Both the position numbers and the translations under genes were made by a program. This document shows positions 19,175-38,443 of a stretch of 43,846 nucleotides of DNA, piece by piece (the stretch's first letter is position 1; every line of letters starts with the position of its first letter). The notes beneath the pieces were generated by a model, which saw only the letters and a program-made list of their open reading frames with translations, had not been told where the DNA came from and did no database searches. This stretch comes from Steroidobacteraceae bacterium (GTDB lineage Bacteria > Pseudomonadota > Gammaproteobacteria > Steroidobacterales > Steroidobacteraceae): the NCBI GenBank assembly GCA_019683695.1, contig JADGHX010000019.1:1-43846 (forward strand). The letters are read 5' to 3'.

Positions 19175-20389
19175 GTGAGCTCCAATCCGCAATCCCGCCG
19201 GATTCTGTCCGGCGTGCGCCCGACCGGCGCGCTCCATCTCGGCAATTACCACGGTGCCCTGCGCAACTGGGTCGAGCTGCAGTACCAGTACGAATGCTTT
19301 TTCTTCATTGCGGACTGGCACGCGCTCACCACCGGGTACGAGGACACGTCGAAGCTGCAGGAGAACATCCGGCAGGTGCTTATCGACTTTCTGGCGGCCG
19401 GGCTCAATCCGGGCGTCGCGACGATCTTCGTGCAGTCTCACGTGCCCGAGCACGCGGAGCTGCACCTGCTGCTATCGATGATCACGCCGCTCGGCTGGCT
19501 CGAGCGTGTGCCCACGTACAAAGATCAGCAGGAAGCCCTGAAGGAGAAGGACCTCGCCACGTACGGCTTTCTCGGCTACCCGCTGCTGCAGAGCGCGGAC
19601 ATCCTGCTCTATCGCCCCACCTACGTGCCCGTGGGCGAGGATCAGGTGTCGCATCTCGAGATCGCGCGTGAGATCGCGCGCCGCTTCAATCACCTCTACG
19701 GCCGGGAGCCGGATTTCGAGATCAAGGCGGAGCTCGCCGTGAAGAGCCTCGGCGGGAAAAATTCATCCACGTATCGCCAGCTGCGCCGGCGCTATCAGGA
19801 AGCCGGCGACACCGAGTCGCTCGAGCGAGCCCGCGCGCTCGTTCACAGCAACAACCGCATCACCGTGGCGGACAAGGAACGGCTGCTCGGCTATCTCGAG
19901 GGCTCGGGCGTCACCATTCTGCCGGAGCCGCAGGTGTTGCTCACGGAGACGCCGAAGGTGCCGGGGCTCGACGGACGCAAGATGTCCAAGTCGTATGGCA
20001 ACACCATCGGCATGCGCGAGGATCCGGACGCCGTCGCGCAGAAGATGCGCACCATGCAGACGGATCCGGCGCGGGTCCGCCGCACCGACCCGGGCACGCC
20101 CGAGAAGTGCCCGGTGTGGGATCTTCACAAGATCTACTCCGACGACAGCACGCGGGAGTGGGTCTACAACGGCTGCCGCACCGCTGGCATCGGCTGCCTC
20201 GATTGCAAGAAGCCGCTCATCGACAAGGTGGTCGAGGAGATCAACACCCTGCGGAAGCGCGCGCAGGAATTCGAGGAGAGCCCGGAGCTGCTGCGGAACA
20301 TCGTGACCGAGGGCGCGGACAAGGCGCGTGAAGCCGCGCGGGCGACGCTCGATGAAGTGCGCCGCGCGATGAATCTGCGGGCCGACTGA
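19175..20389 (+). CDS. trpS: Tryptophanyl-tRNA synthetase
   Basis: Class I synthetase that charges tRNA-Trp. The 404 residues include the HIGH-type motif ALHLGNYHGAL near the N-terminus and the KMSKS loop GRKMSKSYGN. Between them is an insertion of about 60 residues (KSLGGKNSSTYRQL to LLGYLEGSG) that makes it longer than E. coli TrpS (334); longer forms are known in related proteobacteria. The C-terminus has CRTAGIGCLDCKKPL. The start is GTG at 19175 with no clear ribosome site. A seven-codon mini-frame (ATG at 19158, stop overlapping the GTG by 4 nt) might couple translation, but this is speculative. scpA follows after 8 nt. Confidence 0.96.
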   Translation: MSSNPQSRRILSGVRPTGALHLGNYHGALRNWVELQYQYECFFFIADWHALTTGYEDTSKLQENIRQVLIDFLAAGLNPGVATIFVQSHVPEHAELHLLLSMITPLGWLERVPTYKDQQEALKEKDLATYGFLGYPLLQSADILLYRPTYVPVGEDQVSHLEIAREIARRFNHLYGREPDFEIKAELAVKSLGGKNSSTYRQLRRRYQEAGDTESLERARALVHSNNRITVADKERLLGYLEGSGVTILPEPQVLLTETPKVPGLDGRKMSKSYGNTIGMREDPDAVAQKMRTMQTDPARVRRTDPGTPEKCPVWDLHKIYSDDSTREWVYNGCRTAGIGCLDCKKPLIDKVVEEINTLRKRAQEFEESPELLRNIVTEGADKAREAARATLDEVRRAMNLRAD

Positions 20390-20397
20390 CGTCGCCC

Positions 20398-21912
20398 ATG
20401 AAGCCGAAGCTCGAGATCGTCGCCTCCAATGATCCGGCACCGCCCGCGCCGGCGGAAGGAGTGCCCGAACAAATGGAAATGCCATTTGCCGTCGTCCGTG
20501 GCGAGCCGATCACCGAGCTGCCGAAGGACCTCTACATCCCGCCGCAGGCGCTCGAGGTGTTCCTCGAGGCCTTCGAGGGTCCGCTCGATCTGCTGCTGTA
20601 TCTCATCCGTCGGCAGAACCTCGACATCCTCGACATTCCGCTGGCGGAGATCACCCGGCAGTACATGCAGTACATCGAGCTGATGCAGGAATTGCAGCTC
20701 GAGCTCGCGGGCGAATACATGGTGATGGCCGCCACGCTCGCGGAAATCAAATCGCGCATGCTGCTGCCGCGGCCGAAGGTCGAGGGCGATGGCGCGGAGG
20801 AAGACCCGCGTGCGGAGCTCGTGCGCCGGCTGCAGGAGTACGAGCGCTTCAAGCGCGCGGCGGAAGATCTGGATCGCCTGCCCCGCCTGGAGCGCGACAC
20901 GTGGTGCGCGGGCGCGGAGCTGAAAGATCGCAAGGTCGTGCGTCTGCTGCCGCAGGTGACGCTGCAGGAGATGCTCATCGCCTTCAAGGAAGTGGTGGTG
21001 CGCGCGGAGATGTTCTCGCATCACCACATCTCCCGCGAGCGGCTGTCCGTGCGCCAGCGCATGACGGACATTCTTGCGACGCTCGAGCGCGCGAGCTTCG
21101 TGGAGTTCGTGCGGCTGTTCCGGCCCGAGGAAGGGCGCATGGGCGTCACGGTGACGTTCATCGCCATTCTCGAGCTGATGCGCGAGGGGCTGCTGGATAT
21201 CGTGCAGGCCGAGCCGTTCGCACCCATTCACGTGCGGCTGGCGTCGGAAAACCGCATGCTGCGGCTGGTCGCGAACAACGAGCCGCGGGATGCTCCTCCC
21301 GGCGCAGCCGGTGAGCTCGCTGCTGAAAGCGTGTACGAGGAGGCGGCCACCGAGGAGAACGCGGCGAACCCCAGCGCCGCCACCGACGTTGACGCTGCCG
21401 AGCGCGACGCTGCTCGGACCGATGATGGGGAGATCGACGACGCGGAGCGCGACTTCGCCGAGAGCGCGGATGCCGCCGCCAGCATGGCTGCGTTCGACGC
21501 CGCCGGGATCGAATCCGCCGAGGCCGAGCGCGAATCCGTTGAGACCGAGGCTGTTGGGGGCGACTCGGCCGAGTCCGGCGTTGAAGAGACCTCACCTCAC
21601 GAAGCCGCGTCCACCGACAGCGAATCTGCCGCGCACAGCGCTGCTGTCGTGACTCCGGATGCGGATGCGTTCGCAGAATCGCAAGCCCCGCATGCCGCAG
21701 AGTCCAGCACGCTCGAGATGGCCTCACAGGAAAACCGCGAGGCACCGCCGTCCGCGGCCACGAACAGTATCACGGCGGGCAATGATCCCGCCCCACACAT
21801 GGAGCCGGGCAAATCGCCGGCTTCAGGCATGGAAGCGGGTCCCACGCCCGCCCACAACGACAGTGAATCACAGGGTGGAGAATCGCCGCCGCCAGACGAG
21901 GGGCGTTCATGA
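20398..21912 (+). CDS. scpA: Segregation and condensation protein A with a long acidic tail
   Basis: Kleisin that bridges the heads of the SMC dimer. The conserved core spans about residues 45-290, with FLEAFEGPLDLLLYLIRRQNLDI-type N-terminus (57-78), EYMVMAATLAEIKSRMLLP and a C-terminal winged helix with FVEFVRLF and GVTVTFIAILELMREG. Residues 295-504 form a tail dominated by Ala, Glu, Asp and Ser with almost no hydrophobic patches, so the product is far longer than usual (about 250-290). It starts 8 nt after trpS and overlaps scpB by 4 nt (ATGA), implying translational coupling. smc lies in the same window on the opposite strand. Confidence 0.95.
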   Translation: MKPKLEIVASNDPAPPAPAEGVPEQMEMPFAVVRGEPITELPKDLYIPPQALEVFLEAFEGPLDLLLYLIRRQNLDILDIPLAEITRQYMQYIELMQELQLELAGEYMVMAATLAEIKSRMLLPRPKVEGDGAEEDPRAELVRRLQEYERFKRAAEDLDRLPRLERDTWCAGAELKDRKVVRLLPQVTLQEMLIAFKEVVVRAEMFSHHHISRERLSVRQRMTDILATLERASFVEFVRLFRPEEGRMGVTVTFIAILELMREGLLDIVQAEPFAPIHVRLASENRMLRLVANNEPRDAPPGAAGELAAESVYEEAATEENAANPSAATDVDAAERDAARTDDGEIDDAERDFAESADAAASMAAFDAAGIESAEAERESVETEAVGGDSAESGVEETSPHEAASTDSESAAHSAAVVTPDADAFAESQAPHAAESSTLEMASQENREAPPSAATNSITAGNDPAPHMEPGKSPASGMEAGPTPAHNDSESQGGESPPPDEGRS

Positions 21913-22856
21913 ACGAGTCGTACATCAAGAATGTGATTGAAGCGGCGCTGCTTGCGGCGGGCCGTCCTTTGCAGATCGCCGAGCTGGCCGCGCTGTTCGA
22001 CGAGGCGAGCCGGCCCGCGCCGGCCGCGATTCGCGACGCGCTCACGACTCTCGAAGCGGACTACGCCGAGCGCGGCATCGAAGTGAAGGAAACCGCCACG
22101 GGCTTCCGCATCCAGGTGCGACGGGAGCTGGCGAACGAAGTCTCGCGGCTGTGGCCCGAGCGCCCGCCGCGCTACTCGCGCGCGCTGCTCGAAACGCTCG
22201 CGCTGATCGCATACCGCCAGCCCATCACCCGCGCGGAAATCGAAGCGGTGCGCGGCGTGGCCGTGAATCCGAACATCATCAAGACGCTCATGGAGCGCAA
22301 CTGGGTGCGCGTCGTGGGCCAGCGCGACGTGCCGGGCCGCCCCGAGCTGCTCGCCACGACGAAGGAGTTCCTGGACTACTTCGGCCTGAAAAGCCTCGAG
22401 GATCTGCCGCCGCTCGAAGAGCTCAAGGCCATGGGCGATGTGAATCTGCAGCTCGATCTGGCCAAGGCGCCCGATGGCGCGCAAGGCTCGAATGCCGCGG
22501 AAGGCCAGCCCGATGCCGCGGCAGCGGATGGCGCAGCGTCCGATTCGAACACGGCAGCCGATACAACCAGCGAGGCCGCTTCGACTGCCGGGCAGGAGTC
22601 GTCTTCCGAGCCTGCTTCCGCCACCGCAGAGCCGGCCGACGCCGCATCGACCGCCGATGAGGCCTCCGCGAGCGGGGAGCCGGAGGATGACGACTCGAAC
22701 GACGGCGCCCCGACGGCCGAGGCGGATGCGAGCCCTGCAGCCGATGCCGACTTCGAGGACGATGCCGCGGACGATGCGGCCGATGAGGAAGAGCTCTCGG
22801 CCGATGCGGATGACTCGAAAGAGCTGGTCGCCGCACCCCACCGCTTCGAAGACTGA
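21909..22856 (+). CDS. scpB: Segregation and condensation protein B with an acidic tail
   Basis: Two tandem winged-helix domains that dimerise and bind ScpA in the SMC condensin. Core residues 1-185 show YIKNVIEAALLAAGRPL, RYSRALLETLALIAYRQPITRAEIE (split over 89-112), GVAVNPNIIKTLMERNWV and GRPELLATTKEFLDYFGL. Residues 186-315 are a low-complexity tail rich in Ala, Asp, Glu and Ser ending in ELVAAPHRFED. The overlap with scpA and the 5-nt gap to the RluB-like gene make trpS-scpA-scpB-rluB a likely operon. The core has normal length, and only the tail is unusual. Confidence 0.95.
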   Translation: MNESYIKNVIEAALLAAGRPLQIAELAALFDEASRPAPAAIRDALTTLEADYAERGIEVKETATGFRIQVRRELANEVSRLWPERPPRYSRALLETLALIAYRQPITRAEIEAVRGVAVNPNIIKTLMERNWVRVVGQRDVPGRPELLATTKEFLDYFGLKSLEDLPPLEELKAMGDVNLQLDLAKAPDGAQGSNAAEGQPDAAAADGAASDSNTAADTTSEAASTAGQESSSEPASATAEPADAASTADEASASGEPEDDDSNDGAPTAEADASPAADADFEDDAADDAADEEELSADADDSKELVAAPHRFED

Positions 22857-22861
22857 CTTCC

Positions 22862-24082
22862 ATGGCCGCCCGCGGCCGCGACAAGCACCCACGCAGCCCA
22901 GGCGCTGCACGCAGACCCGGCTCGCCGCACGCCCGTGCTTCGGGGCGCGGCGAGCCTTCGCGATCTGCCCAGCACGCTCCCGATGCGAGCCGTGGCAAGC
23001 GCCAGTCGCTCACAAAACTTCGCAGCACACGTGTCGGTGCGCGATCGCCGGAAAGCGATCGCGGTTTCTCCGACGTGCGGCGTGATGCTTCGAGACGCGC
23101 GCCACCGGCCTCGGACTCACGTGAACTGCCGCGCGACCGCAGCGCCCCGGCTGAGGGCCGTGGCATGCGAAGCAAGCGTGATTTCAGTGATGCCACGCCA
23201 CGCCCGGAACAGCGTGCTGCCGGCCGCTTCCGGGCGGCAGAGGAATCGAAGCACACAGGGCCGGGCGAACGGCACCGCCGCGGGCGTCCCGGTTCGCGGC
23301 GCTTCTCGCCATCTCGACGCGGGCATCATGGTGGTCGCAGCGCCGAGGGCGAGCGCCTGCAAAAGGTGCTCGCGCGCATGGGCGTGGCCTCACGCCGGGA
23401 GGCGGAGGACTGGATCCGCGCAGGCCGGATCACGGTGAATGGTCAGCCGGCGGTGCTCGGCATGCGAGTCACCCGCTCGGATCGCCTGCGGCTCGATGGC
23501 CGGCTCATTCACCGGCACGAGATTGCCGCGGGTCAGGTGTATCTGTGCCATCGCTCCCCCGGCGAGCACCTGCGCAGCCCCGATGAGCCGTCGGAGCATC
23601 AGGCGCTCGTGGAGCGTCTGCCGCGCCGGGCGGGCAACCGGTTCATCATGATCAGTCCCATGCCGCGCATCGATGGGGGCCTCGAGCTCGTCACGTCGGA
23701 TGGCGAGCTGGCGGCAACCCTGCAGCGAACCATCCACAGCCTGCCAAGCGAGTTCAGCGTGCGCGTGCTGGGTGAACTGACCGATGCTCAGCTCCGCAAC
23801 ATCCTCGACGGCCTGCTGGATCGCGGCGACCGCCTGCAGGTCGAGAGCTGCGAGCCGAGCGGCGGCGAAGGCGCGAACCGGTGGTACACCATCGTCGCGC
23901 GCGGCGGGAGCGGCAAGGACGTGCGTCAGCTCTTCGAGCGCCAGGGTGCGCTGGTGAGCCGCGTGCTGCGCACGCGCGTGGGAACGCTGGTGCTCGACCG
24001 ACACTTGTCGCGCGGCCAGTTCCGCCCGCTCACGAAAGACGAAGTCGCCGCGCTCACCCCGCCGGAGCCGACGGTCACCTGA
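22862..24082 (+). CDS. RluB/RsuA-family protein lacking the catalytic Asp; Arg-rich N-terminal extension
   Basis: By position after scpAB and by overall similarity this is the RluB homologue, which in E. coli makes pseudouridine in the 23S rRNA near the peptidyl transferase centre. Residues 1-160 are an Arg/Ser/Gly-rich, disordered extension. The S4 domain follows (163-215, GERLQKVLARMGVASRRE). In the synthase domain the universal GRLDxxT motif, which holds the nucleophilic Asp, aligns without gaps to SPMPRID (265-271), so Pro268 occupies the Asp place. The conserved Tyr of the YAVRVFG strand is Phe298. EGRNREVRRLW reads GGSGKDVRQLF. The fold-level anchors LPRRAG, TSDGELA, GGEGANRWY and VSRVLRTR remain. 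It probably binds rRNA without ordinary synthase activity; Asp271 could substitute only if the loop shifts. The frame is intact and no strong ribosome site is seen at the ATG. Confidence 0.85.
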   Translation: MAARGRDKHPRSPGAARRPGSPHARASGRGEPSRSAQHAPDASRGKRQSLTKLRSTRVGARSPESDRGFSDVRRDASRRAPPASDSRELPRDRSAPAEGRGMRSKRDFSDATPRPEQRAAGRFRAAEESKHTGPGERHRRGRPGSRRFSPSRRGHHGGRSAEGERLQKVLARMGVASRREAEDWIRAGRITVNGQPAVLGMRVTRSDRLRLDGRLIHRHEIAAGQVYLCHRSPGEHLRSPDEPSEHQALVERLPRRAGNRFIMISPMPRIDGGLELVTSDGELAATLQRTIHSLPSEFSVRVLGELTDAQLRNILDGLLDRGDRLQVESCEPSGGEGANRWYTIVARGGSGKDVRQLFERQGALVSRVLRTRVGTLVLDRHLSRGQFRPLTKDEVAALTPPEPTVT

Positions 24083-24202
24083 AGTCCGTCCTCACCCATT
24101 TCAGGCGATACGGCGCCAGCGCGGCCGTGTAAACAACTGCGAGGACTGATCAGCCAAGCGGTAGAAGTGCGCCGGCGCAGCGTTCGGGTGCACGAAAACG
24201 CT

Positions 24203-27639
<3,437 letters not shown>

Positions 27640-32019: not shown

Positions 32020-32862
32020 ATGGCGGCCAAACGCCCCGCGCCCAAGACTGCCAAGGCCAAGAAGCCGGCGACGCGGCCCGCTGCCCGCAAGGCCGAGAAG
32101 CGGCCTGCCGAGCGCCCAAGGGCCCTTGTTGCCGCATCCCCGAGGAAATCCGTACCCGTGTCATCTGCGACGAAGAAAGCCCCGAATTCACGCCCCGTTG
32201 CGGCGGCGGAAACACCCGCTGCGAAGCCGAAGGCGGCGGAAGCCTCCAAGGCGGTGGAAGCCCCTGTGGAGAAGGCTGTGGAAGCCCCCGTGGAAACGCC
32301 TCAGGAGGCCGCGGAGGAAGCCATTGCCGTGGCGACGTCCTCTTCGCGCCTGAACGAACCTCCTGTGTCGAGCCTCACCTCCGCCGCCGATCCGGACGAC
32401 ACGGAAGGCGTCGAGCCGGGCAGCCTCCTGGCCGGTCCGCGCAACGTCAAGCCGTACATCCCCAAGCGCGGCGAGCAGTACATGAGCAAGGAGCAGCTCG
32501 AGCATTTCCGCAAGATCCTGCTCGACTGGAAGCGCGATCTCATGGAAGAGGTGGACCGCACCGTCTCTCACATGAAGGACGAGGCAGCGAACTTCCCCGA
32601 CCCGAACGACCGGGCCACGCAGGAAGAGGAATTCAGCCTTGAGCTGCGCACGCGCGATCGTGAGCGCAAGCTCATTCGCAAGATCGACGAGGCGCTGAAG
32701 CGCACCGAAGACGGCACGTATGGCTACTGCCTCGAGACCGGCGAGGAGATCGGGGTGAAGCGCCTCGAGGCGCGCCCGGTGGCCACGCTCAGCATCGAGG
32801 CTCAGGAACGCCGTGAGCGCCGCGAGCGCCAGTACGGCGACCGCGACGACCGCTATCGCTGA
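32020..32862 (+). CDS. dksA: RNA polymerase-binding transcription factor DksA, long form with degenerate zinc finger
   Basis: Works with ppGpp in the secondary channel of RNA polymerase. The C-terminal 130 residues match E. coli DksA: YMSKEQLEHFRKILLDWKRD, the coiled-coil tip FPDPNDRA with both acidic residues (Asp194, Asp197), and EEEFSLELRTRDRERKLIRK. Of the four zinc Cys only the first survives: CLET (237-240) and SIEA (258-261) stand for CxxC and CxxC. I recall such Cys-poor forms in alphaproteobacteria, in Xanthomonas and as DksA2 of Pseudomonas, so function is probably kept without zinc. Residues 1-140 are a Lys/Ala/Pro-rich extension, Lys-rich at first and acidic later, which includes two copies of KAVEAPVE. 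A strong promoter precedes it and the gluQ frame overlaps its end. Confidence 0.95.
   Translation: MAAKRPAPKTAKAKKPATRPAARKAEKRPAERPRALVAASPRKSVPVSSATKKAPNSRPVAAAETPAAKPKAAEASKAVEAPVEKAVEAPVETPQEAAEEAIAVATSSSRLNEPPVSSLTSAADPDDTEGVEPGSLLAGPRNVKPYIPKRGEQYMSKEQLEHFRKILLDWKRDLMEEVDRTVSHMKDEAANFPDPNDRATQEEEFSLELRTRDRERKLIRKIDEALKRTEDGTYGYCLETGEEIGVKRLEARPVATLSIEAQERRERRERQYGDRDDRYR
32248..32295 (+). repeat. Two tandem 24-bp units inside dksA
   Basis: Units 32248-32271 and 32272-32295 both encode KAVEAPVE and differ at three third-codon positions. The copy number could vary between strains. Confidence 0.8.
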
Positions 32863-37546: not shown

Positions 37547-38443
37547 TCACGGCCGGCCCGGTGTCCGGTCCGCGAAGAGTCGGCGCGGCTGCACTGCGCC
37601 GAATCCGTCAGCTTCACCGAGGCCGAAAAAGCGGCCTGCGGCGTCGTAGAGCCGCACGCGGCCCGGCGCGAGCACTTGAGGCGTCGACACAGCCTGGCCG
37701 TGACGCACCCGTTCTGTCGCCTGCGCGTCGAGCGCAACAGCAGGCAGGTGCAGAACCGCGCGATCGGGCGCCAGCAGCGCCGGCGTTTCACCGGACTCCA
37801 CTCGCGCGGTGAGCTCGTCCAGGGTGATCATCGGCTCATCCTGGAACGGTTCGACATAAAGACGGCGCAGCGCGGCCACGTGGCCGCACGTGCCCAGCGC
37901 CCGCGCGATGTCTTCCGCAAGCGTGCGGATGTAGGTGCCCTTCGAGCAGAGCGCTTCCAGCTCGATGCGCTCCGCCTCGCTCGATAGCACGCTGATCTCG
38001 TAAATCTCGATCCGCCGCGGCTTGCGCTCGACCTCGACGCCGGCGCGCGCCAGCTTGTAGAGCGGCTGGCCATCGCGCTTGATGGCCGAATACATCGGCG
38101 GAATCTGCGTGGTCTCTCCCCGGAAGCGCGCGAGCACGCTTTCCAATGCCGCGCCATCGAAGGTGGGCACCGGCAGCGTTTCCATCACTGCGCCTTCGAC
38201 ATCACCCGTTGCCGTGCGCGTGCCAAGTGCCAGGGTGAAGCGATATCGCTTGCGGCCTGCGACGATGTCTCCGGCGATCTTCGTGGCTTCACCGAGACAG
38301 ATGGGCAGCATGCCCGTCGCCAGCGGATCGAGGCTCCCGACGTGCCCGGCCTTGTCGGCCCGCAGGAGCCGGCGCACGCGCTGAAGCGCCGCATTCGACG
38401 AAACCCCGAGGGGTTTGTCGAGCAAGAGGATTCCGCAAACCAC
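37547..38443 (-). CDS. truB: tRNA pseudouridine-55 synthase
   Basis: Makes pseudouridine 55 in the T-loop of tRNAs. The GTG start at 38443 directly abuts the rbfA stop and gives 298 residues. The nucleophile Asp39 is in GSLDPLATGMLPIC; other family segments are KPLGVSSNAAL, YSAIKRDGQPLYKLAR and CSKGTYIRTLAEDIARALG. The C-terminal PUA-like domain ends with FGLGEADGFGAVQPRRLF. It is the fully conserved counterpart of the catalytically odd RluB-like protein in this window. Its place after infB-rbfA is conserved. Confidence 0.98.
   Translation of the reverse strand: MVCGILLLDKPLGVSSNAALQRVRRLLRADKAGHVGSLDPLATGMLPICLGEATKIAGDIVAGRKRYRFTLALGTRTATGDVEGAVMETLPVPTFDGAALESVLARFRGETTQIPPMYSAIKRDGQPLYKLARAGVEVERKPRRIEIYEISVLSSEAERIELEALCSKGTYIRTLAEDIARALGTCGHVAALRRLYVEPFQDEPMITLDELTARVESGETPALLAPDRAVLHLPAVALDAQATERVRHGQAVSTPQVLAPGRVRLYDAAGRFFGLGEADGFGAVQPRRLFADRTPGRP

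Follow-up and report, generated by a model that had tools for sequence, protein, structure and literature searches.

A putative RluB-derived pseudoenzyme encoded beside scpB in the family Steroidobacteraceae

The window analysed here, i.e., the whole stretch of 43,846 nucleotides from a Steroidobacteraceae bacterium, contains an open frame for a protein of 406 amino acids (22862..24082, + strand), which is regarded here as a putative RluB-derived pseudoenzyme. Located upstream on the same strand are trpS (19175..20389), scpA (20398..21912) and scpB (21909..22856), the latter being the conserved neighbour; the frame starts 5 bases past the scpB stop, a gap suggestive of co-transcription of the two genes. 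The convergent ligA follows (24203..26314, − strand). A scan of 22600-24250 for promoters and terminators found none. The products of scpA (20398-21912) and scpB (21909-22856) carry long Ala/Asp/Glu/Ser-rich C-terminal tails; the last residue covered by the best NCBIfam match is 283 of 504 in the former and 172 of 315 in the latter. Elsewhere in the window, truB (37547-38443, − strand) scores above its profile cut-off and contains GSLDPLATG, in keeping with its initial designation as canonical; in the ORF at 32020-32862 the better DksA match begins at residue 142, indicating either a long N-terminal extension or a wrong start.

The predicted protein begins with an Arg/Gly/Ser-rich N-terminal extension (residues 1-160; 22862..23341, +), which is probably disordered. 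The length of this Arg-rich stretch of ~160 residues (22862-23341) differs between relatives. It is followed by an S4 RNA-binding domain (residues 164-208; 23351..23485, +; Pfam). The closest solved relative is Escherichia coli RluB (4lab/4lgt; phmmer, E 8.9e-39), the residues of which are numbered here after the RluB-RNA structure paper (PMC3919597, used in excerpt). From LP(K/R) to DGELA, including motif II, the phmmer alignment is ungapped, and the former motif II (residues 265-275; 23654..23686, +) reads SPMPRIDGGLE in place of GRLDVNTCGLL. Pro268 (codon CCG, 23663-23665, +) stands at the position of the catalytic Asp110, termed universally conserved in the structure paper (PMC3919597), and Pro266 (codon CCC, 23657-23659, +) at that of the base-flipping Arg108, the R108A mutant of which has 0.6 % of wild-type activity (PMC3919597). 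Tyr140, for which Y140F is given about 3 % of wild-type activity in the same source (PMC3919597), is replaced by Phe298 (codon TTC, 23753..23755, +). In the former A2602 bulge-binding loop (residues 289-296; 23726..23749, +) His131/Ser133/Glu135/Arg138 are exchanged for Arg289/Ile291/Ser293/Ser296, and the former motif III (23903..23929, +) reads GGSGKDVRQ instead of EGRNREVRR, with Lys352 at the position of Arg194. The S4 anchor Arg17, which in RluB contacts U2593-G2595 of H93, is kept as Arg178. The preliminary description had reported SPMPRID for GRLDVNT with Pro268 for the nucleophile, a region of unchanged length, Phe298 for the conserved Tyr and the altered EGRNREVRR motif; its observation is right on each of these points, yet understated.

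Residues were counted in 35 rows lacking GRLD at motif II (the window and 34 of 42 such loci) and in 16 of 38 canonical loci, with 21 of the 38 in a second alignment. Among the 35 rows, the Asp110 position is occupied by Pro (32) or Ala (3), that of Arg108 by Pro throughout (35/35), that of Tyr140 by Phe (28), Tyr (4) or Leu (3) and that of Arg194 by Lys or Arg in 29; the S4 anchor Arg is invariant (35/35). At the position of Thr113, where active enzymes have Thr or Ser (13 and 3 of the 16 canonical rows), the window protein has Asp271 (codon GAT, 23672..23674, +). None of the 57 family genomes read lacks an acid here: 54 have Asp, and three, each of a different genus, have Glu. Taking as conserved what is found in at least 15 of the 16 canonical rows and as kept what is found in at least 90 % of the 35 GRLD-less rows, 16 of 19 conserved positions are kept in the S4 half (164-222) and 20 of 60 in the catalytic half (223-398). 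Arg231, Leu237, Gly258, Ser265, Pro266, Asp271, Gly272 and Glu275 are fixed in the GRLD-less rows (35/35) and rare in the canonical ones; Arg289 (34/35), Gly351 (34/35) and Ser232 (33/35) are nearly so. In the wider family, the deepest branch has Leu instead of Glu275, and the acid at 271 is general.

In the window protein, Pfam calls S4 (E 2.7e-14) and does not call PF00849, both of which are called in the canonical paralogue of the same genome; in L042, a GRLD-less protein from the deepest branch, PF00849 is still matched weakly, at 25.5 bits (cut-off 26.8). The NCBIfam RluB profile (NF007976) scores 140.2 bits against a cut-off of 290. An RluF- or RsuA-type identity was rejected, the protein lying far under both cut-offs (RluF, 54.3 bits vs. 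318; RsuA, 42 bits vs. 275). Descent and architecture are those of RluB, and the residues that define RluB are missing. An AlphaFold2 model of residues 157-406 reached a pLDDT of 90.1 and a pTM of 0.80, based on a 51-row alignment that includes 16 canonical rows and may bias the model toward the canonical fold. Its best Foldseek match is 4lgt (RluB with a 21-nt RNA; E 1.2e-21), and VIA-align superimposes it on RluB-RNA with Z 21.1 and 3.3 Å over 239 residues. Both match lists also contain 9cl9, known here from its title ('WT 12C IM fraction, B-b3 with RluB bound') and taken by us, on that title, for an assembly intermediate. A canonical control model (pLDDT 89.2, pTM 0.82) matches in the order of elements, except for strands near 58-60 and 163-180. 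As predicted, the window protein would thus keep the RluB fold.

GRLD is absent at motif II from all 57 Steroidobacteraceae genomes read, which represent 24 of the 25 sampled genera. The gene adjoins scpB in 56 of them and lies at a contig edge in the remaining one (G210). Whether relatives share SPMP, as had been asked at the outset, is answered in part: the loss of GRLD is common to all 57 genomes, whereas SPMP itself occurs in 23, next to NTMQ (6), SPLA (6), QPLP (4), SPLP (4) and 11 others, a variety that indicates long divergence. One copy (L148) reads SPMPTPDG at motif II, and its GRLD letters fall elsewhere in the frame. Outside the motif count are G118, G151 and G075 with matches of the same kind as well as G001, which ends before motif II; no scpB is present in the assemblies G006, G023, G026 and G072, and the contig of G032 ends 110 bases past the scpB match. 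Among 23 genomes from other families of the order, all 21 scpB-adjacent copies have GRLD. In the other two, GRLD is present in the copy read and no scpB in the fetched stretch; one of these copies represents a weaker and probably different synthase. The best 80 genome_contigs loci comprise 42 without GRLD at motif II, partly from the same records as the 57 family genomes, and 38 with it, including Pseudomonas, Kangiella and Rhodocyclaceae.

In a tree of 78 chosen rows (29 GRLD-less copies, 14 of the second, canonical RluB described below, 9 from the order, 22 of the 38 canonical loci and 4 RluF-like) the 29 GRLD-less copies are set apart from all other rows by a branch supported at 100/98; this clade has a long stem and long inner branches, and the outermost fork of the tree is weak (45/76). 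The simplest history would be one loss in the ancestor of Steroidobacteraceae. Pairwise NG86 comparisons of close GRLD-less copies yielded dN/dS values of 0.04-0.40, with 84 of 101 loci parsed (some representing the same gene twice), scored pairs of 72-98.5 % identity and at least 180 shared codons, one pair with saturated dS, and dS being rough in these GC-rich genes. The earlier view of an intact gene that is probably kept by selection in its usual place after scpAB is supported by these values together with the conserved synteny.

A search of the window's genome for another rluB, as had been proposed, revealed a canonical RluB (CAN) beside cysM (G000:C286:25617-26330; L003 1291-2082). It has the same S4 and catalytic domain layout as the window protein; unlike the latter, it keeps GRLDVNT, the MHPSSEVEREY loop and EGRNREVRR, and it scores 282.7 bits with the NCBIfam RluB profile, just under the cut-off of 290. 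Of the 37 family genomes tested, i.e., those with a 23S H93 match, 14 have CAN (>220 bits), while the best match in the other 23 reaches 112-148 bits. It co-occurs with the 'core' GRLD-less copies; core genomes without it are G020 (98 % complete) and G004 (88 %), and it is present in 5/5 other tested members of the genus of G020. CAN is absent from G027, a single contig of 100 % completeness. The GRLD-less copy is also kept in genomes where CAN was not found. In the free 78-row tree, CAN forms one clade (100/99) outside the GRLD-less clade; when both are forced together, the likelihood is 1.36 higher and p-AU is 0.53, so that the two may have arisen by duplication within the ancestor of the family. 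CAN may hence be a sister kept after such a duplication, or it may have been acquired from outside.

Five other representative matches comprise one RluF-like gene (GRLDKDS; 310.5 bits, cut-off 318), one RluE-like gene (233.2 bits, cut-off 284) and three generic TIGR00093 synthases. One synthase with an intact GRLDADSTG motif (L088, genome G003) is 47 % identical to CAN over the match and scores 136.5 bits with the NCBIfam RluB profile; since its motif is intact, genes of this type may modify U2605 where CAN is missing.

The H93 hairpin of 23S rRNA was searched for with a pattern leaving 2604-2606 free. Matches were obtained in 24 of 59 genomes, 22 of them with UU at 2604-2605 and the other two outside 23S by their flanks. 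RluB Arg108 is described to stack on the pair G2588-C2606 (PMC3919597). In the core branch this pair is changed to A2588-U2606, namely in 12 of 13 CAN-bearing genomes with credible 23S vs. 0 of 23 genomes without CAN (12 of 14 CAN genomes when G073 is counted). The window's genome carries the swap (G000:C162:11193-11219; L241), as do 11 further family genomes, while G148 has CAN together with the old pair G2588-C2606. Fisher's test of swap against CAN gives p 1e-8, which is not independent evidence, since the swap probably was one event in one clade. G073 was excluded from the count on account of its 23S, which is 81-85 % like that of the family and order over at least 650 bases and at most 90 % over shorter stretches. 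This sequence (G073:C7; L228/L311), only 81-90 % like the others compared, probably represents contamination.

Among the explanations other than a selected pseudoenzyme, an assembly or sequencing error or a misalignment deserves hardly any credence. That resequencing might restore GRLD, as had been considered, is refuted by its absence from 57/57 family genomes, with which 42 of the best 80 genome_contigs loci agree (records partly shared), and no gap against RluB occurs across the region that could betray a misalignment. The long stem of the clade, its long inner branches and the canonical paralogue in the window's genome might raise the suspicion of a pseudogene, or of a duplicate that decays slowly and without consequence. 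However, frames are intact in 57 genomes of 24 genera, dN/dS stays at 0.04-0.40, and the gene is retained where no canonical copy was found, rendering decay very improbable. A frameshift was likewise discarded in view of the ungapped alignment and the intact frames.

More weight is to be given to two other proposals. In one, Asp271, the use of which through a shifted loop had already been raised in the preliminary description, would serve as the nucleophile from a proline-rich loop, three residues downstream of the original position, with U2605 or some new uridine as its substrate. The acid at 271 in all family genomes read, as opposed to Thr/Ser in active enzymes, is in favour of it, and so are the new invariants Arg231, Ser265, Pro266, Gly272, Glu275 and Arg289, whose places in the sequence coincide with the former motifs I and II and the former bulge loop or are close to them, and the 23 of 37 tested family genomes without a canonical RluB copy. 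The acid at 271 together with Lys/Arg at the Arg194 position would fit a rewired active site. Replacement of the true nucleophilic Asp by Glu as a rule inactivates pseudouridine synthases, and three genomes, from as many genera, have Glu instead of Asp271; moreover, Arg108 is Pro in 35/35, the bulge loop is gone and Tyr140 usually so, and an Asp at a Thr/Ser position would be expected of a turn- or helix-capping residue as well. A relocated nucleophile is therefore considered quite improbable. Just as improbable is a rewired site formed by Asp271 with its new invariant partners Arg231, Glu275 and Arg289, be it of an Asp-relocated synthase or of a new RNA-dependent enzyme, many members then maturing their ribosomes without canonical RluB. 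In the other proposal the fold was recruited elsewhere, e.g., to another RNA, to a protein partner or to a reaction on a small molecule within the rewired cleft. The replaced RNA-bulge contacts and the new invariant charged residues (Arg231, Asp271, Glu275, Arg289) are compatible with this, whereas the RNA-anchoring Arg of the S4 domain is invariant (35/35) and the synteny is the same as in canonical relatives; recruitment of this kind appears unlikely.

The protein is probably an ancient, selected RluB-derived pseudoenzyme. Most likely, its ligand is a hairpin of rRNA and its role that of an RNA chaperone or of a 50S assembly factor working without catalysis. The earlier idea of an rRNA-binding pseudo-enzyme stands as far as the family clade, purifying selection, the invariant S4 Arg and the missing catalytic and flipping residues are concerned, while its RNA-binding part is inferred. 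The absence of synthase activity is likewise deduced from the residues. In the family's ancestor, the scpB-linked RluB would have lost both Asp110 and the flipping Arg108, together with the loop that binds the bulge and the greater part of motif III, with the S4 domain and the fold surviving these losses. The S4 domain would still anchor an RNA hairpin, the groove, deprived of flipping Arg and bulge clamp, would hold the stem with no base turned out, and the protein would work transiently on pre-50S particles. The presumed target is H93 or another 23S hairpin, in an assembly role; with the loss of the residues that bind the A2602 bulge, the RNA bound may now be one other than H93. In the E. 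coli delta-10 strain, RluB expression is reported to have no significant growth effect (PMC11194073, in excerpt), and RluB therefore has no known chaperone role to pass on.

The pseudoenzyme interpretation may be compared with known systems. With E. coli RluB (4lgt/4lab; 9cl9) the window protein shares the S4 and synthase folds, the ungapped motif II and descent, and with RluB of related families the location next to scpB; it differs in lacking Asp110 and Arg108, in Phe for Tyr140, in the replaced bulge loop and motif III, and in remaining under the NCBIfam and Pfam (PF00849) cut-offs. RluF (3dh3) has the same architecture, but family genomes hold separate RluF-like genes with GRLDKDS. Trypanosome mt-LAF3 is mitochondrial and not of the RluB type. 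Similar to what is proposed here, it is a synthase orthologue, the catalytic function of which was reported in a review, consulted in excerpt, not to be needed (PMC11469412). TruB, a tRNA chaperone, likewise illustrates a pseudouridine-synthase fold acting without catalysis, since catalytically inactive TruB is stated to rescue fitness (PMC11301382, in excerpt); it differs in being still an active enzyme and in acting on another RNA. For RlmB, an assembly role independent of activity is described (PMC11194073). No account of an RluB-derived pseudoenzyme was found in searches of open-licence literature, in which most subscription papers are missing.

The best reading of these sequences is a family-wide bacterial pseudoenzyme derived from pseudouridine synthases. 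The idea that enzymes modifying rRNA and tRNA have a partly non-catalytic role rests largely on engineered dead mutants. In the present family evolution seems to have split the scaffold from catalysis, with a dead RluB beside an intact RluB in one branch and alone in many members, and it becomes directly testable whether an rRNA pseudouridine synthase can have a role without catalysis. If such genes were named RluB on account of their neighbours or of general similarity, pseudouridine 2605 would be predicted wrongly. Family-wide retention without the catalytic residue suggests an RNA job that needs no chemistry.
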